NCBI RefSeq assembly: GCF_004011695.2
Contig: NC_082407.1
Location: 62,001-126,000, forward strand
Source of the DNA: Ascochyta rabiei
Lineage: Eukaryota; Ascomycota; Dothideomycetes; Pleosporales; Didymellaceae
DNA: 64,000 nucleotides
Direction of reading: 5' to 3'
Of the stretch, positions 5,112-45,532 are shown one piece after another. The notes beneath the pieces are model-generated. The model made no database searches. It was not told the DNA's origin and saw only the letters and a list, made by a program, of their open reading frames with translations. How positions within the stretch are numbered: the stretch's first letter is position 1; each line of letters begins with the position of its first letter. The position numbers and the translations under genes were made by a program.

Positions 5112-6373
5112 CTACGCTGCAGGGGCTTCAGCGCATGCCCGATCCCAGAAGAGTTGGTTCGTGCCAGTCGTAGCGATGAACTCGCCTTGCTCCAACGTGT
5201 ATGTAAGGTAAGCGCAGTTCTGGAGGCCTGGGTTGAAGAGGTAGCTCATGCACGTAGCCTCAGCCAAGCAAAGACTGGCACATGTCGCGACGTCCGTAGT
5301 AGAAATGAGGTTGAACGAAGAAGCGTAGTACTCGGTCTTGTTGGCAAAGCCTTCCACGCCACAGATGTTGCCAGGTACTGGAGCTGCGTCGCACTCTCCG
5401 AACGCGCCCTGGCAACCCGTTCCGCAAAAGGCACTAGTGCCTCCACTACAATTTCACATCAGCCTTTGTCTCAACTACCCTAGGCATGGAGAACTTACCA
5501 GTAGCCGTATTGCGAGCAACAATCGCCAAACGTTGATCCCAAGCAAGTCAGTCCGTCGGAGCTTGCTCCGCATGCCCCATCGGTGGAAACCGCCTGTGTA
5601 GCCGATGGCACAGCGGAGGTAGTCCTGGTGGCAGTGGAGAATGAGGAGGGGGCCAAGCTCGACGACGATGCTGGAGTGGAAGAGGATGATGGTTGGATCG
5701 ACGTGCTGACGGCACCGCAGTTCCCAAAGGCATCATTACAGCCAGCACCGCAGTAGCTGCTGGTGGCTCCGCACCATCCGTATTCACTGCAACAATCGCC
5801 AAATGCCGACCCTGAACATGTGAACCCTTGGGTTCCACCGCAACTTCCATCAGTGGAAATCTTCACGTCTGGAACGGACGAAGACGATGTTGCAGGGACG
5901 GAAGACAGCAGTGTAGATGAGGAGGCTGATGTGAAGAGAGTTGAAGAAGACGGTGCGGATGATGAGGGCGATGTTGCAGGGATAGAAGATGATGTCACAG
6001 TGGACGAGGTGGTAGATGCTGTGAATGGTGCCGAATTTGCTGAAGTTGGTGCTACAGACACAACAATCACTTTCGTCGATGACGTTGTTGATTTCATCAA
6101 TGTTGAAGACGGCTTTGCTGGTGCTGCGGATGACTTTGCAGAGGTTGGAATGGACGAAGTGCAGTCACCGAAACCAACTTGGCAGCCTTTCCCGCAGTAT
6201 GCTGAGGACGAACCGCAAAACCCGCCCTTGTTACAGCAATTCCCGAATATCGAGCCCTTGCAAGTAGGTTGGTTTCTGGACTGTTGGCCGCAACGAGCGG
6301 TAAAGCTTCGTTGGAGAGCATCGGCCCCAAGGAATGGAAGGGCCGCAATGGCCAATAGAAGAGCAGAATGCAT
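5112..6373 (-). CDS. Secreted protein with three hevein-type chitin-binding domains and a C-terminal apple/PAN-like module
   Basis: Exon 1 is 6373..5499 and exon 2 is 5445..5112. The 53 nt intron (GTAAGT...TTGTAG) falls inside the third chitin-binding domain and restores the CSQYGYCGG motif. The product is 402 aa. Residues 1-19 (MHSALLLAIAALPFLGADA) form a signal peptide. Chitin-binding type 1 (PF00187) modules lie at about 28-71, 178-219 and 268-310, each with the eight-cysteine spacing and the Ser/aromatic sugar-binding residues (CCSEYGWCG in module 2). Long Ser/Thr/Ala linkers, probably O-mannosylated, join them. Residues 318-397 (NICGVEGF to WDRAC) carry six cysteines in a PAN/apple-like pattern. 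No catalytic chitinase or deacetylase domain is present, so the protein probably binds chitin in the fungal wall or shields it. Chitin binding is inferred from family. Confidence 0.92.
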
Positions 6374-7008
6374 AGCGAACGAAGATGAACAAAACGAGTG
6401 ACTGAACAGGGTTACAGGGTCGAAGCCGCTGCGCGAGATTTGAAGAAACCAGGCGATCTTTAACGATTGTCAACTGCCAATGCAATAGGGGGGAACAAGA
6501 ATGCTCTGAGTCTCAGGTCCATGTTGGGAAGCTAGCTAGACTGGTAGGGGGCAGCCGCTATGCTGTTCGCGATGTAGCCAAATTAAGGATCTGCGAGATC
6601 CCCACAAAATAAGATGCCACAGTCCAGATAAAGGTCGCTGCCGGCCACCCGGCAAATACCCGAGCGAATGACCTGCATCGTCTTCAGCCTTAAAAGAAAG
6701 CGGCTCCACCGTTTCACTGCTGCCATTGGAGCGAATGCAAAGATACGATCCCTACACTGCCTCGTCGAAGGTGTGGTTACAGTGCATTGCCACAGCAGCA
6801 GCGATGCTGCACGCCATTCTGCGCATGCCAACACTGAAATTCCATTGCGAGACGTCCACGCAGCTGAAAACACACGATGTAGGTGATTCTGACATGCGCA
6901 AGTGGCCGCCACCAATAGTCGCAAGGGTAGCGTGCGACCTAGCTCGGCTGGGGCCGCGGAGCAACGTGCGGAAGCGTGCCGTCGTTTACGAACCACGCTA
7001 AAGAACAT
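6374..7008. other. Intergenic region left of the Mutator-like element
   Basis: Before the element inserted, this was the sequence downstream of the decayed secreted-protein gene whose stop codon is at 10517. Overlapping open frames on both strands (up to 141 codons) show no recognisable product. Confidence 0.45.
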
Positions 7009-14384: not shown

Positions 14385-16218
14385 CTAGGTAGACCGTAGC
14401 TCATGAGAGGAAGCAGTCTCGGTCGCGGTACCTGCGTTAACCTTGTTCTTCCAGATCGATCCGTGCATGCTTTTTGGCACTCTGATCGCGAAAACGCTGA
14501 GAAAGAGCCCAATTCCACTCAAAATTACGCAGCTGTAGTATACGCTCCTGTACCCAAGGCCACCCAGTTCACCCCGAGGAAGATGCGCGTCGCCATATGT
14601 CATCTCGACGCCTTGTGCGACCGCTGTCAGCACAGCAAGGCCCAGAACGCTGCCGCCGACCTGCAGCGCGACGTTGAAGACACCAGCAGCGGCGCCTTGG
14701 TCCGACTTTGACGCGGAAGAGACGACGACAAAATTAGCGGTGATGTAGACGGCTCCAATACCGGCAATGTACAGTATCATACCTGGGAAGGTGTAGCGCC
14801 AGTACGAAGTGTGCTCGGTGATGAAGCTGAAGAGGAGCACGCCAGGGATGGAAAGAGCCCAGCCAATAATGAACTATTAGATTAAAAAATCAGTCAGCAC
14901 GTTCATTTGGTATTGTAGGACGTACACGTAAAAGAAAATGTGGTACCTTACCATTGGCCTTGCGCCGAGAATAGGTACGAGACGACCGGAAAGAGTATTG
15001 AAGATAAGGGCGCTTATGCCAAGTGGAATGAAGAGGACTGAGGTGTGGATAGCACTAGTGCCGTAGGACTGGAGCTGAACAGTGAGGAAGTAAGTGCAAG
15101 CCTGTCGTACGGCGTAGGTGTTGACGGCAAGGATCATCGTGAGGTTGAAGGATAAATCGCGGAATAAATGGGGAGCCAGGATTGCTTGAGGTGCCGAGCG
15201 CTCATACAGGATAAATGCAACAACCAGGAGAGTGGATACCACGAGAGTAGCGATGATTTTGGGGTCGTTCCATCCTTCTGTATTTGCTGAGGTGAGTGCG
15301 TAGGTGAGGAGGAGGATACCAGGAATACCAAGAGAGATGCCTAGAGCGTCGAATCGAACCAGACGCTCACGGACCGATTGTAAGAGCTCTTTCTTTGCTG
15401 GCGCCGGCTCACTGTTGGCTTCAACCCCTCCGTCAACGGGATGCGGAGTTGCAGCGCGAGGAGAGGGGACCCGTGGAAGGACAACATAGGCCGCTGGAAT
15501 GACGACGCCTGAGATGATCAGAGACATCCAGAAGATCCACCTCCAGCCCAAGGTTGCTGTGAGAACGCCACCAAGGACGAGTCCGATGATGAAGCCCAAG
15601 GAACCTGCAGCACCCCATATTCCAAGAGCTTTGGCCTTCAATGTTGGATCGGTGAAATGTAGGGCAATATGTGCTTGCGCTGGAGGAATGGTGAACGCGG
15701 CACCTATTCCCTGAAATGCTCTGGCGATGACAAGTCCTAAGAAACTCGGAGACACAGCGCATACCAGACTGAACAACGCGAAGAAAACCATGCCAAAAAG
15801 CAGAACGCGACGATGTCTAGGCTCGATGTTAGCTAAGTCCCTGAGGAGATCAAGCTGTAGTGTAAGCCAACCCGATGATGTCTCCTCCACGGCCGCCCAG
15901 GAGAAGAAAACCGCCAAACGTTAGAGCGTAGGCGGAGATGATCCATTGGAGATCGCTAGTGTTGATGTTGAAGTCTTTCTGAATCGTCGGCAGTGCAATG
16001 GTGATTGCGCTTAAGTTTGCAAGGTCGAGAAACATAGCAGAGCAGCTACGGGTCACGTGTTAGTACAAGGCTAGAGCACGTGATATAAATACCCACACGA
16101 CCACTAGAATGTAGTAAGGACTGCTCTCTGCGATGCGATCTGGAAGAGTCTGAATTCGTTGGAAAAACATTGCGAGTGGTCGCAAACTGTCGTCTGCTCC
16201 AACGCGTGAGAGGTGCAT
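14385..16218 (-). CDS. MFS drug:H+ antiporter (14-TM, DHA2-type efflux pump)
   Basis: Exons are 16218..16097, 16045..15872, 15816..14952 and 14873..14385. Introns of 51, 55 and 78 nt are in phase; the second contains a good GCTAAC branch site. The product is 549 aa. Features seen are SAMFLDLANLSAITIALPTI in TM1, LQWIISAYALTFGGFLLLGGRGGDIIGHRRV (TM2 plus the G-x-x-D-x-x-G-x-R-x signature loop), a motif-C-like Gly/Pro-rich helix (AAGSLGFIIGLVLGGVL), a long charged central loop (PSPRAATPHPVDGG onward) and helices to about residue 515. This is the DHA2 family used for export of toxins, drugs and metabolites through the plasma membrane. The specific cargo cannot be read. Its neighbour downstream on the same strand is the P450. 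Confidence 0.92.
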
Positions 16219-24565: not shown

Positions 24566-27500
24566 TCACCCACTCAACGTAAGCTGCTCCAGTCGTGCAA
24601 CAAGCTCGCTCATATCCAGCTCCTCTGAAGATATATCCTCGGTAGATGATGATAGACTTGTGTCTGCTTTGTTGTTCATTATCTTCTGCACAGATGCAAT
24701 GTCTTCGGCACAAGCTTGCGTTGTTGAATGCTCTGGTCCAAGTGTAGTCTCAAAGCCATTCAAAGCGCGTTCGTAGAAGGCCAAAGATTCCTGGTAGCGG
24801 TGCTGTTCTTCCAAGATGAAGGCAATCCAACTGATACTGTCCAGAGTGTCCAGGTGATCTTTCCCGAGAGCCTTTTCTTGTAACGCTAGCGTCTCGCGAA
24901 ACAGCTCCTCTGCCTCATCCCATCGTCCTTGTTTAGAGTACGTTGACGCCAGGTTGCCCATGCTCATCAGCGTATCTAGATGGTTGTCTCCTAGCTCTAT
25001 CCTGTGCTTCTCTAGTACTTGCAACACTAGCTCTTCTGCCTTATCCCATCGTCCTTGTTTGTAGTACGTTGACGCCAGGTTGTTCATGCTCGTTAGCGTA
25101 TCTACATGGTTGTCTCCTAGCTCTATCCTGTGCTTCTCTAGTACTTGCAACTCTAGCTCTTCTGCCTTATCCCACCGTCCTTGTTTGTAGTACGTTGACG
25201 CCAGGTTGCCCATGCTTCTCAGCGTATCTAGATGGTTGTCTCCTAGCTCTATCCTGCGCTTCTCTAGTACTTGCAACTGTAGCTCTTCTGCCTTATCCCA
25301 TCGTCCTTGTCTGTAGTACGTTGACGCCAGGTTGTTCATGCTCGTCAGCGTATCTAGGTGGTTGTCTCCTAGCTCTATCCTGCGCTTCTCTAGTACTTGC
25401 AACTCTAGCTCTTCTGCCTTATCCTATTGTCCTTGTTTAGAGTACGTTGACGCCAGGTTGCCCATGCTTATCAGCGTATCTACATAGTTGTCTCCTAGCT
25501 CTATCCTATGCTTCTCTAGTACTTGCAACTGTAGCTCTTCTGCCTTATCCCATCGTCCTTGTTTGGAGTACGTTGATGCTAGGTTGCCCATGCTTATCAG
25601 CGTATCTAGATGGTTGTCTCCTAGCTTTATCCTGCGCTTGTCTAATACCTCTTCTTCCAGCTTCTGCGCCTTGTCCCATTGCCCTATGAGTGAATGCGCA
25701 TGTGCTACCATCGCCATGGCCGACCACGTCTTCTTATGCACCTCTCCAAACAGCCTCTTCCGTATCTCCAGCGACTGCTCCGCAAGCAGCTTAGTCTCAG
25801 TTGCATTGCTTCTCCGCCATGCGTACCACGCGGCGCGATATAGCAGCGCAGCCCACTTCAACAGCAGCGGATCACCCTCTGGCTGTTGCTTTGCAGCCAC
25901 CTTGACGTGCGCAAAGAGCGGACCGCACACAGTCCAATTCTCATACTCTCCTGTTGGAAATACTGCGTCAAGATTGCAGATGAACTGCTCTCTCCAACGC
26001 TCTAGCTTCCTGTTTGCGGCCAACCAGGTGCGAGTGGCAAGTTGTACAAGCGCGTGCATCTCAAAGCCTGTTCCATCGGTATTGACGGAGATGAAGCAGA
26101 AGCTGCGCAGCGTTGTAATATCTTCCTGAAAAGCATCGTCTTCGTCGTCGTCTGCGGGATTACTGGCAAGTTTGTGTTGCGAATCACTCAAACTCTTCTC
26201 GATGTCGTCCTTGATGTCGATATCGGGGTTCGTGGTGCGGTCATTCCGGATTTCATCATTTGTGCACACAGGCTGCAACTCGTCCTTCTCTTTAGGGTAC
26301 TCTGCATTGAGGTCATCGCCATCTTGACTGATCTCATGCTCATCATGCAAGACTAGCACCCGTAGAACACTCGGGGGGATCCCCTGTCGGTCAAAAAAGC
26401 TCATGAGCGAAAGCCTCTCTGCTGCTGACGGTCGCATCTGCTGTATGTGCTCAAAAGAAATCTGCCAAGTTGTAATGATTGAGTTCTTTGCCTCTGCATC
26501 GCGCCGAAGCTGGCCTTTATCGTACTTAAGAAGGCTTGACTGCTTTCGCTCGCTTTTCTTGAATTCGGCCAGATATTGTGTTACGGAGCAAAGCGGCGCT
26601 CTCTGCGAGATGTATGCAGCAGCCTGCGCGATGGCGAGTGGCATATGCTCGAGTAATGTCACAAGTTCGGCACACTCTTTAGTATTCGCATTGTGTGCTT
26701 GCGCCCCCAGCTTCTTTCGAAGTAGCGCCAGGGATTGCGCTTCACTCATTGGCTCTACTCTCATAATGTCTTGCTGCTCTACTAGGCTCAGCGCAGCTTC
26801 TTCGTTCCGCGTCGTGACAAGGATTCTGCCTTGCTCGCAGTGGGGAAGGTAGTCCCGCAGCGGTCGGGTTGCCGTCTTGGAGCTTGCGTTCTCAGCGTCA
26901 AGCAGGAACCTGGCGTCATCTACGTTGTCCAGCACAAGCAGCCACCGCTCCTTACAGTCTGCAAGCCAGTCGTGTACTAGTTTGAAGATATTGGTTTCTG
27001 TATTCTCCCGTCCTGCGGCCTTGACGCGGTCGGCGATATCATGGAAGCTACGCTCGAGGCGGGCAGCGCTGCTGGCGTGGGCCCAAAAAACCCATGTGGT
27101 TGACGACGTTTCACGCGTGCGCCAGGCGTGCTCTATAGCCAGCTGCGACTTGCTTTGCGCTGGTCAGTGTCGTTCTTGATGTGTGATGTAGTAGCCGAGT
27201 ATGGCTTGGTAGCCGAACGAGTACTAGTGGCTGTATGTGGGGTGTGGCTGAATGTGGAGTGTGGCTGGGTTTGGCTTGTGTGCAAGCAGGCTACTCACCC
27301 TACCCCGCCCAGCCCGACGAGCGCAATCCGCGCATTTGGCAGCCCGCATCGCTCATGGATTTCGTCGAGCAACGTGCCTCGGTCGATAAACTGCTTGTCG
27401 CGGGCGAATGGTATTACAATCGACGGCTGCGGTGCATCTTCGCGTCGCTCTTCAGGTGGGCCACGGATTAGCCTTGCGCGAGATGTTGTTGCGCTGAAAT

Positions 27501-27622
27501 CGCAATACTGCCTATTTACCTGTGCCAGTGTTGGACGCGTGGGATACGTGCGTCACTGAGCCGTAGATGTTGCCAGCCTCAAAGCCTTTGTTCCCATCGC
27601 CAAAAGTCGCTGAAGAAGTCAT
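24566..27622 (-). pseudogene. NB-ARC/TPR NOD-like receptor (fungal STAND NLR) with an in-frame TAG in its TPR array
   Basis: Exons are 27622..27520, 27449..27299 and 27152..24566; introns of 70 and 146 nt close in phase. The full frame is 946 codons, interrupted once by TAG at 25426-25424 (codon 661). Residues 7-23 carry the motif FGDGNKGFEAGNIYGSV, also present at the C-terminus of the PNP gene at 29829. Then follow the classical pre-NB linker (IVIPFARDKQFIDRGTLLDE), Walker A GLGGVGKSQLAIE (about 79-91), Walker B ERWLLVLDNVDD (about 151-162), RILVTTRN (RNBS-B), MPLAIAQAAAYI (GLPL-like) and MHALVQLATR (about 450, MHD-like). From about 535 there are TPR units of 42 residues, several nearly identical (RWDKAEELQLQVLEKHRIEL). 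In the third unit CGATGG (Arg-Trp) reads CAATAG. The role expected from family is an intracellular sensor that oligomerises and triggers cell death in non-self recognition. If TAG is real, a 660-aa form keeping the whole NB-ARC but few repeats would be made. Confidence 0.88.
24790..25690 (-). repeat. Array of seven 126 bp TPR-coding repeats with high internal identity
   Basis: The units begin at the codons for (R/Q)WDKA: about 25676, 25551, 25425, 25299, 25173, 25047 and 24921, spaced 126 bp. Central units are almost identical at nucleotide level, including third codon positions, which indicates recent duplication or gene conversion. The outer units are more diverged. Confidence 0.88.
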
Positions 27623-28110
27623 GGGAGGAGTTGAGGTTGGAGGTCAGCAGCACGGCGCTCGTGCGAAGATCTTTCAACCGCAGCATCAGGCTGAGGCTTA
27701 GCCAGCGCTGAGTAAGAGCGTCATTGCCAAGCTGCATCACTTATCGCAGCTCCGCACCTATTGGTGGACTGAGCGCGGCTGTCACAGCTATAGAAAGAGG
27801 AGAGTGGCAGCACCGCTTAGATTCCGAGAACATCATTTCGGCGATGAGCGGAGCCACAGTCACCAGATTAGGTACGCAATTAAGGATGCATGTTCAAACA
27901 GATTCACTAAGTCGCTACCGGTAGTTATTACGGCGCCCTCGGCGTGCCAAAGCCAAGTCTTGACGTGGGACAAAATTGCACAAGTGAGGTCGCTAACCTC
28001 TTTGCTCATGCATAACTCACCAGAATTAGCAGCTTAGGGGCGGACAAACCCAAATCATGTAGGTGGGAGGCACGTAGCTGTGGCGCATGTTGAGGCCTGA
28101 TCCAATACAG

Positions 28111-29472
28111 ATTTGCATCAACCAAATCCTTCGTCGACACTGCACCGCAGCTCCGTGGCAGCCTTGAGAAACAGTTGAACATCCCACGATATTTCTTCGA
28201 TCGGCTGTACCTTCAGTCAAACGGCTTCGCTGGCCATCATGTTCGACTTGACTGTGATGGAAAAGTGGAGGGCTACAGTGAGAGACCAGTGTCAATCCCC
28301 CACACATGTCTAAATTGGCTGACAAGCTACAGCGCACTGGTCTCGCTTTATTGTCAAGCAGACTTACAACATACTTCTGCCAAAGCGGACATTTACACCT
28401 CATCTGTCAAACTACCAGTTAGGACACAACAGTCCCATTGACGCTGTTGCTGTTCACGGACCGCAGAGCATGCAGTTTGGATGGGAGTGGTTCGAAATGG
28501 GATTCTTCTTGTCTTGGAAGTCGTCAGGGCCATTGACGTTGATATGTTTTGACCTGCCCCCCCAGTCACAGTCAAGCATCCAGAAAGTGCTAGAATCAAG
28601 GACTGTGAATCTTACAAGTCCGCACTCTTTATTGGTGTTCGTAGCAGATGAGTTACTGCAGCTGTACGACGACTCGGTGTGGTCCATCAGGAATCACATC
28701 AGCCAGGGGGAAGCGGTGAGTCAGGTCATCTGACACTTTACAGCTCAATCTACATAGTCTAAACAGCGACAGAGAAGGGCAATGGAGACGAACTATCTGG
28801 TCTTGCACGAGATAGCAAGACACGGCGTACACGTCAACGAGACCTTGAGAGTAGCCATGAACTCTCTTGACGCCGTGCAGCAACACCACAAAGAGCTGCG
28901 TGAGCGTACCACTCCCAACAAAGGCTGGGACGAAGTAGGGAGCCGCCTGACCTTCCAGCGCCAATTCATTGAAAATCTGCTCCAGCGATCAACTGCAAAT
29001 AACGCTCGTATCCAAAATGAAATCACTCTGGTAAGACATCGTTCGCTTGCAATCCATCCGCTGGCTTACAGCAATAATCGTTCAACTCAGCAGCCCAAAG
29101 AGACAGCAAGATCCAAGTGCGCATAGGCGAGGAAGCGAAAAGGGAGGCTTCCGCGATGAAAGCGATTGCGATTGTCACAATGACCTTCCTGCCCGCCACC
29201 TTCGTATCGGTGAGTGATTGGATCCAAGGCACGAAGCACACTGACGAGCTGACACAAATATTTAGACCATCTTTGGAACAAACTTCTTCTCTTTCGAGCC
29301 TCGTGAAGGGGGACAAGGCACGTCCTTTGCTGTGTCTGGCCACTTCTGGATCTATTGGGCTGTGTCGATCCCGATGACTATGGCTACCCTTGCACTGTGG
29401 CTATGGTGGAGCCGGTCAGGAGGCCGGTTAAACGTGGCTGTGGGGAGATCCATAGCCTTGTCCGCCGTCTAG
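28111..29472 (+). CDS. CorA-like fungal membrane protein (N-terminus unresolved)
   Basis: The family is the large set of fungal CorA-like proteins with a soluble N-terminal part and two C-terminal TM helices. Likely exons: (28111)-28277, 28423-28715, 28767-29030, 29111-29209 and 29266-29472. Peptides seen are FVDTAPQLRGSLEKQLNIPR followed by FFDRLYLQSNGF, then WEWFEMGFFLSWKSSGP, ARHGVHVNETLRVAMNSLD, and EASAMKAIAIVTMTFLPATF (TM1) joined across a 56 nt intron to VSTIFGTNFFSFEP. TM2 is HFWIYWAVSIPMTMATLALW. The pore motif GMN of true CorA Mg2+ channels is not seen, so transport is not assumed. Two problems remain: no ATG was found for the first exon, and around 29031-29110 homologous peptide (AAQRDSKIQ) precedes the usable acceptor, with a TAA upstream. 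The gene may therefore be slightly damaged. It lies between the NLR and the PNP gene, divergent from the NLR. Confidence 0.7.
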
Positions 29473-29828
29473 ACATGGGCTGGGCGTTAGAAACCTCGAC
29501 CGATCGAATGAGACGTTGGCTTATAGCCTCTTTGATGCATGAAATGGCCCTCAAACTCACCACAGCCGCCATGTAGCTTCGATATCTTTGCTTGCCAATG
29601 ACGTCACGCCTGATTGCTCGTGACGGCGGATTCCTCTTCAGGACTGCGTTAGTAAGCAAGGCTGAACTCGAGCGGCAAGCTGACCATCACGTACGAAGCG
29701 TCTATACAATAGCCTTGTTGACGCTGCTGCCTGGATTTACGATTTCACGTCCTCTGAGTCTCCTTCATACACGATCGTTAGCATCCAAACACGTACGCAG
29801 CCAGTAACAACCACACATCACAGTCAAA

Positions 29829-30941
29829 ATGGCCAAGAATCAGCGTTTCACCATCGCTTGGATTTCCCCTCTCCCCCTGGAAAGAGAGGCTGCTCGACTC
29901 GTGCTAGACGAAGAGTATCCTCAAGAAGAAATTCATCATCGCGGCGTCTACTATCTGGGAGGACGCATTGGTCAACACGAGGTTGTCATTGGGCTGCAGC
30001 ACAAGATTGGGCTGAATGGGGCTGCAAACATTGCTGCGAGGATGTCCGCTGGGTTTCCCAACATCAAACACTTTGTGCTCGTTGGCATCGCTGGCGGGGT
30101 GCCTCGCTACGGCGTTGCAGGTAATGCCAGCGAGATGGTGCTGGGAGACGTTGTGGTCAGCTCTCCGCGGGGTAATTCTGGCGGGGTGGCGCAGTACGAT
30201 AAGGGCGCTTGGAAGGGCGAGCGCGAGGGGCGCCTGATATTCCGTGGATACACAAACGGCATCCCTGGAGATCTGCTGGCTGCTGTGAACAACTATCGAG
30301 CTGAGGGCTGGTCGCAGACGAATATTCCAGAGATACTGGGGCAAATGCGTGGCAAGCTTGACGAGAAGCGTCAGCACCAGTACGATGACCCTGGTCCTAT
30401 TCGCGACGTGCTATACAAAGACAACTACGAGCACCAAGGAACTGAGTATGACGATTGCAAGCAATGCTGCGACGCAGACCATTCTGACTCACGCTCCGAT
30501 CGAGGGCAAAGCGCTGTCCGAATGGTAGACGAGCCGTTCGTCCATTACGGCAACATAGCCTCCAGCAGTCAACTGCAGATATCCGCCAAAGAACGAAACC
30601 GAATCCAGCTCGAGCACGAAGTCATCTGCTTTGAGATGGAAGCAGCAGGCGTCATGGAGGAACATCCATGCCTCGTGGTCCGTGGCATCTGCGACTATGC
30701 AGATTCTCACAAGAACAAAGGCTGGCAGAATTACGCGGCTGCTACGGCAGCTGCATGCGCGAAAGGACTGCTATTGAAGATTCCGGCGGTTGAGATTGGA
30801 GGCGCCGAGGCGTCTGCGAGCCTGGCTGCAACCCCGTCTTCTGCACAGTCGTCACGTGTTTCGTTTGGGAATAATAACCAGGGCTTTCAGGCTGGGAATA
30901 TCTATGGACCGGTCAGTGGAATGACATTTGGACGGCACTAA
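29829..30941 (+). CDS. PNP/UDP-phosphorylase-domain protein with C-terminal amyloid-like motif; candidate NLR partner
   Basis: A single exon of 370 aa, beginning MAKNQRFTIAWISPLPLERE, the typical start of the PNP_UDP_1 (PF01048) domain that fungi use as an NLR N-terminal domain. FVLVGIAGGVP, HYGNIASSSQL, EMEAAG (269-274) and RGICDYADSH (285-294) are the conserved nucleoside/phosphate-site boxes, all present. In most fungal proteins of this type a NACHT or NB-ARC domain follows; here the gene stops 80 residues later. The tail (about 318-344) is Ala/Ser-rich and ends with SFGNNNQGFQAGNIYGPV (345-362), then SGMTFGRH. Nearly the same motif opens the NLR at 27622. Inferred role: a cell-death effector, or a nucleotide/nucleoside-acting effector, switched on by motif templating from the NLR. 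Enzymatic nucleoside cleavage is plausible but unproven. Confidence 0.9.
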   Translation: MAKNQRFTIAWISPLPLEREAARLVLDEEYPQEEIHHRGVYYLGGRIGQHEVVIGLQHKIGLNGAANIAARMSAGFPNIKHFVLVGIAGGVPRYGVAGNASEMVLGDVVVSSPRGNSGGVAQYDKGAWKGEREGRLIFRGYTNGIPGDLLAAVNNYRAEGWSQTNIPEILGQMRGKLDEKRQHQYDDPGPIRDVLYKDNYEHQGTEYDDCKQCCDADHSDSRSDRGQSAVRMVDEPFVHYGNIASSSQLQISAKERNRIQLEHEVICFEMEAAGVMEEHPCLVVRGICDYADSHKNKGWQNYAAATAAACAKGLLLKIPAVEIGGAEASASLAATPSSAQSSRVSFGNNNQGFQAGNIYGPVSGMTFGRH

Positions 30942-33396: not shown

Positions 33397-34798
33397 TTTT
33401 TGCTCTTATCCTTGCTTTTCACCAGCATCGCAAAGCACAGGCACGATAGATCTAAACGTGCTTCTTCAGCAAGGAGCCGTTTTGAGTGTTTGTCGAGCTG
33501 ATATCTCGCGTGCGATTCTATACTCGTTGGCAGCTGATGAGGTTTATGATGGCCTACGTCGAATTTTCTCATCACTTGCCTGCGTGCTCAAACGAGATCT
33601 CATCTGGACAGCATCATTGATTTGATGTCTTCTGTACTTTGTTACATGACATGAGGACACAGGAGAAGCGATGAATTGGGTACGTTCAGAACATGTTCGC
33701 CCGACGAATGACAGACGGGCGACAGGACAATTCAACTGAAAATAGACTTTGAATGTGCTATTCTTCATCAGACCACCACGCATCGACTCGCAAGTCTGAA
33801 GCCTGACTTAAGCGAGTCCTGCACAGGGAAATAGGCCCATCGAGCCAGAGCTTACGATTCCGAATGAACCGATCAGTGACGCACCGCGAGCATGACTCGT
33901 CAATGCAAGTATCTCTTGAAGTCGCGCGACAAGCAGCCCCACTGACGACAGCTTTCAAACCCCTCTCCAGACACGACTCGACGTTGGCAGTGCCTCCCTG
34001 GCCAAGCACGGTGGATTCCAACCGTCCAAGCGACTGCACCACTACCAAGAGCTGGCTATGCCCAAAGGACCGGGTAGCGGACCACCAAAGGTCTGAGTCT
34101 GTCAGTCCACTTTTGAGCCTCCGAGTCAGGCTTCGCTCCAGTACGTTAGTCGGTACGAGAAGGAAGCCTGCCCCTGTCTGAAGCTGGGCCTGGTAATGGA
34201 GGGGGGTGCGCAAGATACCGCGGAGTCGGTGCAGGACACTAGTCTATGATGACGCATTTCCCAACCATATCACATCGAAGTGCGGTACTGGTTCACGTGG
34301 GCCAGAAGATGTACGCCGCATCTGATATCATCCAGACTAGCACAGTTCAAAACACTCGGCGTAACCAGGCCTAGCGAGAGGTGTAGTCAAGGCAGTCCTC
34401 ACAGGGTCAGCAGAGCCAGGAGTAGAAGCGTTGTACTCTAGGACGCGGCTGGATCTCGTCTAGGAGGCGCGGTTGACATGCCGAGTCAGAATGGTCGCAC
34501 TAAACCCCATGCAGCATGTGGCTTGCAGCTCTGCTAGGGCGCCCCTAGGTCTGCATGTCCACACGTCCAGATCGCACTTTGCTCATCGCGCAAGCCGATT
34601 CGCTCAGTGGCGGTATGCGGCACTGCAGGGAAACGCATTGTGAGTATCCTTGCCCTGCACACTGCACCAACCGGCTGAACACTTCACGCGTGACAGCAGC
34701 AAGAACGACATAAAGCAGGTCCACTGCACCACCATGCACCATCTCCCCGGTTACCAACGTCGACAACGTCCTGCCACGTGCAGAACAGGCAATCAATC
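33397..34798. other. Intergenic region between the 5S gene and the GST-like gene
   Basis: Overlapping open frames on both strands at 33758-34213 have no recognised family and mutually exclusive coding. Nothing else is supported. Confidence 0.4.
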
Positions 34799-35473
34799 AT
34801 GTCTGAAGAACCACTCACCCTCATCTCCGCAACGCCCTCCGCCTTTGCGCGCATGCCGCGCATAGCGCTAGCCCTGAAAAAAATCCCCTTCACCCTCACC
34901 AACGAGATCCCCTGGCACAGCAGCACGCAAACCCCGCACCACAACCCGCTCGAGAAGCTGCCGATCCTGCTCTTCCCGGACGCGCGCGCCCCCGTCTACG
35001 AAAGCGCGCACATCCAAACCTACATTGTGGAAAAGTACGCGCAGCGCGGCCCGCGGCTGCTGCCGGGCGATCTGGACGGCGATCTCGCGGCGAAGCAGAT
35101 CGTTGCGCTGGGCGTGGGCTGCTTGGATGCGCTGGTGCTGAACGGGTGGGAGGTCAGGAGGCCCGTGGAGAGGCAGAGCGCGCTGTGGATTGCGCGGCAG
35201 GCGCGGAAGATTGATGGCGCGATGCGCGCCTTTAACCGCTACGTCGAGGACGCGCTGGCGCTGGGCAACGCTGAGTACGTGCTAGGGCCGGAGCTAACGA
35301 TTGCGGATATAGCGATTGTCTGTGCGGTCGGTGGGGTTGATTTTGTGGGGCTGCGAGATGGCTGGCGGCTGCAGTACCCGGCGTTGGGCGCTTATTTCGA
35401 CAGGCTGGATGAGGAGAGCGTCTTCAAGGAGACGAGGCCCGTCATGTTTGATCTGTCGGAAGAGGTCGTGTAG
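34799..35473 (+). CDS. Glutathione S-transferase-like protein
   Basis: A single-exon gene of 224 aa with the two-domain GST layout. The N-terminal thioredoxin-like part (about 4-85) contains the cis-Pro region LEKLPILLFPD and the glutathione gamma-Glu contact VYESAHIQTYIVEKY (E-S followed by an alpha-3 helix). The C-terminal all-helical part (about 95-205) contains ELTIADIAIVCAVGGVDFVG, the A-D-I hydrophobic staple/N-capping box of alpha-6. The expected Ser/Tyr catalytic residue near the start could be Ser9 or Ser13 (LISATPSAFARMPRI). Likely role: glutathione conjugation or isomerisation in detoxification or secondary metabolism. The ATG at 34799 is used; the open frame extends upstream only through a GTG. 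GC content is clearly higher than in the flanks, typical of a conserved expressed gene. No intron is needed. Confidence 0.88.
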   Translation: MSEEPLTLISATPSAFARMPRIALALKKIPFTLTNEIPWHSSTQTPHHNPLEKLPILLFPDARAPVYESAHIQTYIVEKYAQRGPRLLPGDLDGDLAAKQIVALGVGCLDALVLNGWEVRRPVERQSALWIARQARKIDGAMRAFNRYVEDALALGNAEYVLGPELTIADIAIVCAVGGVDFVGLRDGWRLQYPALGAYFDRLDEESVFKETRPVMFDLSEEVV

Positions 35474-42877: not shown

Positions 42878-45309
42878 TCAGTCCCTAAGCTCTTGAATGC
42901 TTTCTTCGAATGCGATCTTCAGCGCCTGTAAGTCGCTGCGGCGAGCATGCACGTGGTGAGACTCGGCTGCGATTTGAAAGAGCTCGTCATCGGGCAGTTC
43001 GCCAACGCGGACAGGATCAAAGGCTGTCACTAAGCCATTAATGAGATGGCGCTCGATGACCTGACGACACACATTGTCGACAAATGTTTTCATTGCCACC
43101 TGGTAAGGTCAGCCTGAAACGTTAATGAGATACACTAGTAGTATTTTTTACCTTGTAATATGCGTTTAGAGCTTCCAGGGATTCTTCGCAGGCTTGCTCG
43201 GTCATGTCCACGACGATTCTATTCTTCAAGGAAGAGCAGAGCTTGTTCATGTCAACGGTTGTATTACTGACGTGCAGCTTTCCGTTCCAATCGTTGGCAA
43301 TTGCATGGTCCATCGAAGCTTGCAGGCCCTTCTTTGCAGCGTCCGCGCGGGCGTTTTGGATATTATTGGTGTAGTAATGGTTGTACGTAATTGGGTGAGC
43401 TTTTTCGTCCGAGAGTATGTTACGCAACTCGTTGCGCGCTTTCTCAAGACTGACATCGAGAGACTTCTGAACCAAGCGCTTGACATTGCTGCGGACCTGA
43501 TCATCGACGATGATATGATCTAGCGCTGCGCGGACAAACTTATCCACCATGGAAGACACTGTCAGCAGATGGTCTCTAGAAATATCACCCCATCTGCTGC
43601 TTTGCTCATGAAACAGCTCTGACAAGACCATGTGGTTGTAGGTCCCAGGAAGCTCACGGCCGCGGCTGTTGAGATATATCTGCTGCTGTTTTAGTAAAGC
43701 AACACCCGGTCAGGCATCTACAAACCTTCTTGACCCATTTCATCAAGTTTTTTTTCGATACACTGATTTGTTGCTTTGGTGCATCACCCTCAGACTCTTC
43801 TGAGATTCCAGATTGACTTGATTCGCTGTCTTCTTGGACGCCATCCTTGAGTCGCCTCTTGGCAGCTTTCGTTCTCATGCAGGCGGCAAATTGCTCGTTG
43901 ACCATGTGGATCCTGGCTCTCAATCGAGTGTCCGGTTTGGTCGTTCTAGTGAAAAAGACAGAATCTCGACCACCATAATTTCCGTCAATGGCAGCTTTTG
44001 TAAGATTGAAGAATTCCATGCTGGTTTGGGTGAGAAACATGCGAATCTGGCTGACTGATGATCTCTCCGGTCCTATGTGAGCCAGCTCATGTTCGGTGGT
44101 CCGGAGTAGTGATTCTATCTCCTTACGGACCTTGGGTAGCTCTTGTTCGATGTGGTTATCAAGGAGTTGCTGGAGAAAGCTCCGTAGGTTGTCAATTCCG
44201 ACTCTTGTTTTGTCCAGATTCTGTTCCTTCCACGGGCTACTACTGAAGAATTGTGTTTCCTGCTGCTGCCTTTCCTCCCAAAGCAGGCCATTGCTAATCT
44301 CCAAAGGTGATGGATTCTTAAGGAGGAAGAAGCCAAGCTTCAGCTTCACACGATCCGAGTTTTTGGCTAAGCTCGCGACTCGCGATTCGGTGCCTTTGTT
44401 GATGAGATCTGGCTTTGTTATGATGCCAACTGTGCGTACCCCGTTCTTATCAAATTTTCGTGCCCTCTGGATAATGCCTTGAGTGTCGATATCATTGGAG
44501 GCTGGTACGACAGCCAAGATGATTGTTCTTGAGCTCTCCAGATAACCGTCCACCAGACACTCAACGGTGCGCATGTCTTCAATGTTTTCCGATACAGAGA
44601 TGAGACCAGGAAGGTCGACCACTGTGAGATGAAGACCTGTATCTCCAATGACCTCTAGTCGAAGTACATCGGCGGTGAACGCTGGAGAGTCTAGCTTTGG
44701 ATCTGTGCAGTCTCTGATCCCCATGAGCGCCGAGGCTTCTTTAATGACTTGAGGCAGATCGTCAAAACCTGTAAGTTGTCTTTCGAATGAAGTCATCCGA
44801 AATCTTTCTTCTTCGGACCGGGAGGCGGCGGGAAGTATCTTAGCAACAATCTCGTTCCTGTTGGGGCAATGACGAAGGATGATCTCGGTGGCAAATCTCG
44901 TACAGACTCCATCCTGTCGCGGGAACGGCACTCCAGTGATGCCCTCAAGGACCGAACTTTTACCTGCGGACTGGTCACCACACACTACCAGCTGAGGTAG
45001 CGAGATATGGTCTCCCACACCCTTTGCCCTGATCTGGTCGATCTGGTTGAGTCGCCTTGAGGAGCCATTCATTTGGAGTCGAATGAGACCAGTCGCATCC
45101 TTTTGCGTTACCGGCACCCATTCCTCTTGCGGGGAGTTCATTCTTGACCTGGAGAAGGTGGTTTCGTTTGGCGTGGTTGATATTAAACGCTGATGAACTG
45201 GGGAGTTGTGGCCATTTGTAGATCCCGTTGCCACACCAGAAGTGTTGAGAATGCTTGCAGCAGGTTCAAAGAACTGAAAGCGGGCAGCTGTTAGAGGAGC
45301 TGAACGCAT
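42878..45309 (-). CDS. Dynamin-like GTPase (fungal Mx/Vps1-type), intact
   Basis: Exons are 45309..43726, 43679..43152 and 43099..42878. Introns of 46 and 52 nt close in phase and give 777 aa. After a variable 90-residue N-terminus come G1 GDQSAGKSS (111-119), the switch region PRQDGVCTRFATEIILRHCP, G3 DLPG (233-236) and G4 TKPD (299-302). A helical stalk and a C-terminal GED-like segment (ERHLINGLVTAFDPVRVGEL to the end) follow. A charged loop (VQEDSESSQSGISEESEGD) lies where the membrane-binding loop is expected; no PH or Pro-rich domain is present. Role from family: GTP-driven oligomerisation on membranes. In fungi these expanded dynamins are often of unknown specific function. The start at 45309 is the first ATG. 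The acceptor of intron 1 lies in a CAG repeat, so one or two extra Gln residues are possible. Confidence 0.92.
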
Positions 45310-45532
45310 CAAGGAGACGTGTGTTGTTGCCAGCAGAGATACGAAAGCAGAGTACGATCATAGCTGAGTGGCGATGGAATGGGTCATCCCACTGCGTGGA
45401 ATGTTTCTGGTTGCAAATGGTGAACTCCATTCCAATGATGAAAGTGATCGGTTCACGTGTTGCAACCGTAGATTGTCCTACGTTACTGTAGCTTCACATT
45501 CGATCAGTTGTTTCCGGACAGGTATGCCAGTA
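45310..45532. other. Upstream region of the dynamin-like gene
   Basis: Short spacer, nothing specific recognised. Confidence 0.4.

Follow-up and report, generated by a model that had tools for sequence, protein, structure and literature searches.

A NOD-like receptor (NLR) gene and a nearby gene for a stand-alone PNP protein in the ascomycete Ascochyta rabiei, a chickpea-blight fungus, share one motif at opposite ends of their products. Both lie in a stretch of 64,000 nucleotides (the window; positions 62001-126000 of contig C3), and coordinates given without a contig refer to it. We find that the pair is real, and that it most likely forms a two-component unit whose kind and whose type of executioner are both known already. 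By analogy with the PNT1/HELLP relay of other fungi, it is probable that the receptor templates an amyloid fold in the PNP protein, which would then likely cause death through hydrolysis of ATP or of an adenine nucleotide related to it. This reading draws directly on the anatomy of the two genes, the class of their motif, its N- and C-terminal polarity, its near-uniqueness in the genome, the linkage of such genes elsewhere, the nucleosidase-like predicted fold of the PNP protein and the low-confidence tail of that model. In this isolate the pathway may or may not still work, since a large part of the repeat array is missing from the receptor and its motif is centred on E in place of Q.

One motif at opposite termini

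The receptor is EKO05_0001790, a protein of 660 amino acids (aa) to which our spliced model is a 100% match. It begins with MTSSATFGDGNKGFEAGNIYGSV and comprises, in order, a PP motif, an NB-ARC domain and tetratricopeptide repeats (TPRs). Three minus-strand exons encode it: exon 1 (27520..27622, with a GT donor after 27520), exon 2 (27299..27449; the linker and the start of the P-loop, GLGGVG) and exon 3 (25424..27152), which holds the NB-ARC domain (28.8 bits) and the first TPRs (TPR_12, 93.2 bits) up to an in-frame TAG, where the public protein also ends. The earlier note on this DNA had carried the gene down to 24566. Because the TAG at 25426-25424 splits the frame and ends the public model, 25423-24566 falls outside the annotated NLR. 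The frame past the stop (24566..25423, minus strand) also codes for TPRs (TPR_12, 251.2 bits), and a TPR-coding tandem array with a 126-bp unit (24903..25648, minus strand; 5.9 copies, 91% matches) spans the stop. Some of the repeats in fungal NLRs have been described as strongly conserved internally (PMC4986451), and the Ascochyta array shows the same sort of conservation.

The PNP protein is encoded by a single plus-strand exon (29829..30941). It has 370 aa, matches PF01048 at 28.3 bits, has relatives of up to 88% identity (the highest in A. clinopodiicola), and ends in FGNNNQGFQAGNIYGPVSGMTFGRH.

Both copies of the motif stand where the earlier note had placed them. The receptor copy is FGDGNKGFEAGNIYGSV (NLR residues 7-23; 27604-27554, minus strand), the effector copy is FGNNNQGFQAGNIYGPV (PNP residues 346-362; 30864-30914, plus strand), and 12 of their 17 positions are identical. 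Their ungapped score of 70 compares with at most 52 in 1000 shuffled pairs, and this is the top 17-mer match between the two proteins, whose other domains differ, in keeping with the claim that the motif is conserved while the rest is unrelated. The motif is thus shared beyond chance.

The motif is of the PP (RHIM-like) class and not HET-s/HRAM. Both ends match PF17046, a family named “PP (misnamed SesB)” in PMC12261475, with a curated cut-off of 23.2 bits. The effector copy scores 20.8 bits in the whole protein, 24.7 bits in a genome scan and 25.4 bits in the tail alone, the last two above the cut-off; the receptor copy (27554..27604, minus strand) scores 17.9 bits in its protein and 19.0 bits in the genome. 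The published PP core is NxGxQxGxN (PMC9815663), and its centre, G-phi-Q-phi-G, is common to the RHIMs of RIP1 and RIP3 (PMC7885112). We compared the termini with the other motif classes, as the earlier note had proposed. No HET-s family appeared at E ≤ 1 among the matches listed for the scanned pieces (for the TPR piece, the best 25 of 39), the sigma family PF17106 had no match at E ≤ 1 on either terminus or in the genome, and the PUASM pattern FxGxGxQxxGxGxF (PMC9815663) is absent from both proteins. The analogy with HET-S/NWD2 drawn in that note thus holds for the layout but not for the motif, since PF17046 is PP and neither HET-s nor sigma matches the termini.

The motif is close to unique in the genome. 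Across 40.9 Mb in 23 contigs, PF17046 at E ≤ 10 marks at least three places, a lower bound as the best candidates were scored: the end of the PNP gene (24.7 bits), the start of the NLR gene (19.0 bits) and C1:390455 (17.8 bits). The first two are 3.2 kb apart, and the PNP place alone passes the cut-off. We rejected C1:390455 as a third motif gene: it has a stop inside, and the longest frame listed within 3 kb has 72 aa.

Polarity and linkage among relatives

The polarity of the motif holds among relatives. About 5.8 billion proteins were searched with each of the two proteins and the best 120 rows of each were studied; both lists were chosen by whole-protein similarity, to which the motif contributes 17 residues of each query. 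Of the 120 NLR relatives (90 of which begin with M and have a P-loop), 69 have the PP core within their first 70 residues; of the 120 PNP relatives, 43 have it within their last 60. It occurs at no other position in either list. The same pattern has a background of 474 matches per 30.6 million residues of shuffled proteins. These counts bear out the N/C polarity that had been claimed from the window.

The centre of the motif differs between the two proteins, being GFQAG in the PNP protein and GFEAG in the NLR. On the PNP side, Q is central in 43/43 relatives. Among the 74 NLR relatives with a motif recognisable by a looser pattern, 70 have Q and four have E (P0121, P0123, P0159 and P0240, compared over the N-terminal 25 residues). 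These four are the receptors of both Ascochyta species and two Fusarium oxysporum proteins, so that E is, among these relatives, a rare variant that apparently arose in separate lineages, Ascochyta and F. oxysporum.

Linkage of the two genes appears to recur beyond A. rabiei. Seven of the 120 PNP rows (window included) appear on the same contig as one of the 119 NLR rows compared (out of 120), two rows being taken to share a contig when their longest contigs are equally long. The six apparent cases besides the window are A. clinopodiicola (locus tags 000512/000514), Boeremia exigua (g522/g523), Dendryphion nanum, Pyrenochaeta sp., Periconia macrospinosa and one JGI contig, and organism names agree in the named pairs. 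All five named linked NLRs have a PP core, four at residue 4-5 and that of Boeremia at residue 42 of its model; the linked JGI NLR is without its N-terminus. Taken alone, PP in the linked NLRs is not telling, as PP occurs in most complete NLR rows.

In the window the two genes are divergent, with start codons 2.2 kb apart. A multi-exon plus-strand gene lies between them (28094-29440), ending in a CorA-like membrane region (PF01544, 20.7 bits, cut-off 27); its spliced frame, 28758..29440, is a guess with a provisional 5' end. The proximity reported earlier thus holds in that the genes are neighbours and their linkage recurs in other genera, while strict adjacency does not, given the CorA-like gene. 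A. clinopodiicola likewise has one locus-tag number between its NLR and its PNP gene.

A predicted relay with a nucleosidase-type executioner

Among known systems, PNT1/HELLP of Podospora anserina and Chaetomium globosum (PMC7885112, PMC7889193) comes closest. PNT1 is a PP-NB-ARC-TPR receptor (PMC7889193), and HELLP is activated by its prion-forming PP segment (PMC7885112). As in Ascochyta, an N-terminal PP is followed by NB-ARC and TPR, and an effector with a C-terminal PP is encoded nearby. The Ascochyta pair differs in having a PNP-fold executioner instead of a HeLo-like pore former or SBP lipase, E for the central Q of the receptor motif, and a gene between receptor and effector. NWD2/HET-S of P. 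anserina also has one motif with N/C polarity on a receptor and its neighbouring effector, but its motif is an HRAM beta-solenoid, its effector a HeLo pore former and its receptor of the NACHT-WD type. Thus, the two-component layout that the earlier note had proposed stands, with opposite termini, neighbouring genes and recurring linkage, while its closest model shifts from NWD2/HET-S to PNT1/HELLP as the motif is PP.

PNP effectors with amyloid motifs are themselves known. Wojciechowski et al. 2022 (PMC9815663) describe PNP_UDP effectors with PUASM or HRAM motifs matched on NLRs, and report pore-forming as well as enzymatic effectors for PP and sigma. Those PUASM/HRAM3-type pairs resemble the Ascochyta pair in a single C-terminal motif matched at the NLR N-terminus; the Ascochyta motif is PP and its receptor NB-ARC-TPR, whereas PUASM receptors are NACHT or NACHT-WD40. 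An amyloid-motif-driven PNP executioner is thus already published. We did not find PP paired with PNP named in the passages of that article consulted; its supplements may list such pairs.

If the pair works like PNT1/HELLP, a ligand would bind the repeat array of the NLR, the NB-ARC domain would then oligomerise, and the N-terminal PP segments would form an amyloid seed able to convert the C-terminal PP of the PNP protein. Going by immune PNP effectors elsewhere, activation of the PNP would amount to hydrolysis of a base-ribose bond, and the fungal cell would likely be killed via hydrolysis of ATP or a related adenine nucleotide. The pair unites two widespread immune modules, a RHIM-like amyloid motif and a PNP nucleosidase, in a small set of genes.

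The executor is of the PNP/UDP phosphorylase type, as the earlier note had it: a profile scan found PF01048 in the effector and no HeLo-like N-terminal domain. An AlphaFold2 model built with 35 aligned relatives has a mean predicted local distance difference test score (pLDDT) of 78. Residues from 324 on are nearly all below 50, and since 324-359 lie below that value, the motif sits in a low-confidence tail. The best 50 solved structures retrieved by Foldseek with this model are all methylthioadenosine/S-adenosylhomocysteine (MTA/SAH) or futalosine nucleosidases (top E 1.9e-11). Such nucleosidases hydrolyse the base-ribose bond. Every row of the 35-row alignment has E271 and D289, and D289 aligns with an Asp of Helicobacter pylori MTAN that is D198 by count along the printed alignment; D198 mutant structures are among the Foldseek matches. 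A PNP_UDP fold with the conserved Glu/Asp is thus present in the window protein.

The substrate is less clear than the fold. PNP_UDP effectors are presented in reviews as enzymes that hydrolyse ATP during immune cell death (PMC12881547, PMC10197012). The immune PNP/ATP nucleosidases covered there, from bacteria and from other kingdoms, share the fold and the conserved Glu/Asp with the Ascochyta protein, which differs in that its activation is predicted to occur through an amyloid tag in trans; cleavage of ATP by it would follow by analogy with these reviews. The predicted fold alone cannot tell which substrate is used. The enzyme might instead act on MTA/SAH or another nucleoside, with a metabolic or signalling change as output and no collapse of energy supply. 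The closest listed folds, all MTA/SAH and futalosine nucleosidases, point that way, as does a 2014 survey that predicted MTA/SAH nucleosidase activity for the PNP domains of fungal NLRs (PMC4986451). The assignment of the family to ATP hydrolysis in immune cell death by the reviews argues the other way, and we consider a non-ATP substrate possible though somewhat unlikely. This alternative concerns the output only and overlaps with the relay reading.

Several observations weigh against the relay. On the effector side, the whole-query TM-scores in Foldseek are just 0.42-0.48 with root-mean-square deviations of 5.6-8.0, low because the PNP protein is longer than the matched nucleosidases; a sequence search against solved structures gave nothing significant (best E 0.19), and PADLOC effector-family matches are partial only (33-37 bits). 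On the receptor side, the motif at 17.9-19.0 bits falls under the PF17046 cut-off and has E where published PP motifs are Q-centred, and the TAG interrupts the TPR array, past which the frame is open again to 24569. Lastly, motif match within the linked pairs is not tighter than in permuted pairs. The observed sum is equalled or exceeded in 514 of 720 permutations, so that no pair-specific wording of the motif is seen. Cross-seeding between PP motifs of two species has been reported (PMC7885112).

This lack of covariation in matched pairs, together with the gene between them, would suit a reading in which the NLR and the PNP are not partners and each is paired elsewhere in the genome; a more divergent PP copy could escape PF17046. 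With no further PF17046 place in a gene across the 40.9 Mb, and with linkage in five other named species, we give this reading hardly any weight. The shared segments could also be an ordinary short docking motif that acts without amyloid templating, given that E in the receptor core would be expected to disfavour a stacked ladder. We judge docking very unlikely: the PP segments of PNT1 and HELLP are prion-forming by experiment (PMC7885112), and the N, Q and G pattern is retained in relatives.

A relay that worked in an Ascochyta ancestor may alternatively be decaying in this isolate, leaving the PNP without a competent sensor. The TAG within the TPR array, the E in the receptor motif and the length of the A. 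clinopodiicola receptor (1035 aa vs 660 aa in A. rabiei) all fit such decay. Yet the receptor keeps PP, NB-ARC and the first TPRs in one frame, the PNP has both an intact frame and an intact motif, and A. clinopodiicola has E in a long receptor, so E is not tied to the stop. Wild pnt1 isolates of Podospora, moreover, range from 4 to 10 repeats (PMC7885112). We therefore regard decay as unlikely, more so than a non-ATP substrate and less so than docking, and retain the relay as the best explanation of the pair.

Putative fused genes, possible exchange of tags and the rest of the window

Other wirings of the same domains occur in the A. rabiei genome. An NB-ARC scan at E ≤ 0.001 marked at least four places, the receptor gene of the window among them. 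Two others, C3:318 kb and C18:616 kb, have an NB-ARC frame (40.9 and 29.5 bits) downstream of a PNP frame (51.8 and 39.9 bits) on the same strand, and we read these from their frame order as putative PNP-NB-ARC fusion genes. The fourth place (C2:2519811) has a HET frame (61.0 bits) and then an NB-ARC frame with TPR-like repeats. A. rabiei thus allows fused and split wiring to be compared in one organism, with at least four NB-ARC places: two after PNP, one after HET and one tagged, with its enzyme in trans.

A motif common in PNP-NB-ARC fusions would have spoken against the paired design. In this genome 0 of 2 such genes carry the PP core, which is absent from their PNP domains and from the rest of the fetched 3.5-3.9 kb. 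The earlier note had also suggested that the PNP was split off from a fusion. The window PNP is 88% identical to the stand-alone protein of A. clinopodiicola and 52-76% identical to those of the other named genera listed, compared with 42% and 32% to the PNP stretches of the two putative fusions in the A. rabiei genome, neither of which has the motif. Because its nearest relatives are stand-alone, we reject a recent fission from either fusion gene, and the proposal of a split is not supported.

PNP relatives carry several kinds of C-terminal tag on similar PNP domains. The last 20-40 residues fall into four classes: PP, a RHIM-like PP variant (for example FGNNTNGIQGRDFHGNVQVG), sigma (in Corynespora P0030, where PF17106 passes its cut-off with 31.1 bits) and a fourth, “VNH” tag (VNHVGSIQTAGGKVIQGSTFQSNGGAMSF and kin). 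Classes were set by regular expressions, with eight labels amended by eye (P0014, P0029, P0036, P0040, P0062, P0066, P0080 and P0083). The fourth tail, a candidate amyloid tag, has a conserved C-terminal 40 residues with GSI, GGKV and QG steps (P0053, P0055, P0056, P0058, P0066 and P0071). An NLR with the fourth tag was not found in a search with the tail only, which gave four proteins from five candidates, all PNPs.

Tags and cores appear not to follow one another strictly. On a tree of 91 PNP cores with tails removed, 12 changes are needed to account for the four classes. Support is modest, with stars on 14 of the 88 inner branches, and most rows are metagenomic, from jgi, lgn or ena sources, where a core could be joined to the wrong tail. 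Twenty-nine of the 120 rows were left out (19 with short tails, six without an anchor and four with short domains). A tree of 20 of the 30 organism-named rows, window included (12 PP, five RHIM-like, two fourth, one sigma), needs four changes against a minimum of three, with 4 of 17 inner branches starred. It omits eight rows with short, missing or unclassified tails, P0082 (RHIM-like, short domain) and P0108 (a further tail type). The top core identity between different tags is 86% for PP/RHIM-like, 84% for PP/sigma and 83% for PP/fourth, and Ophiobolus and Melanomma each have two PNPs with different tags (one label amended by eye).

RHIM-like PP may have arisen from PP by ordinary divergence; a passage from PP to sigma or the fourth tag looks like replacement. 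It is conceivable, at odds that we put somewhat short of even, that a PNP core has moved between NLR death pathways by swapping its 20-40-residue C-terminal tag, so that the identity of a pathway would lie in the motif and not in the enzyme. If confirmed, this would show how new receptor-to-executioner pathways can arise without a new enzyme. No NLR was linked to a sigma- or fourth-tag PNP, and matching receptors for these are hypothetical. Four tag classes on cores that are 83-86% identical form the apparently new part of these results, and suggest re-wiring of an executioner by change of tag. A literature search, judged by titles and the start of abstracts among the 20 of 41 papers listed, did not find exchange of PNP tags as a subject, which is no proof of absence.

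PF17111 (PigL_N in the Pfam copy used, Helo_like_N in PMC9815663) matches six places in the genome.

A profile scan of the window marked further frames away from the pair. On the minus strand these are a chitin-binding frame (5498-6469), a cytochrome P450 (11776-13286), an MFS transporter (14883-15920) and a dynamin-family gene (43660-45357; Dynamin_N, 97.4 bits); a glutathione transferase frame (34694-35470) lies on the plus strand. The segment 36000-42000 has a G+C content of 0.41-0.43 against about 0.5 around it, and is perhaps repeat-derived.

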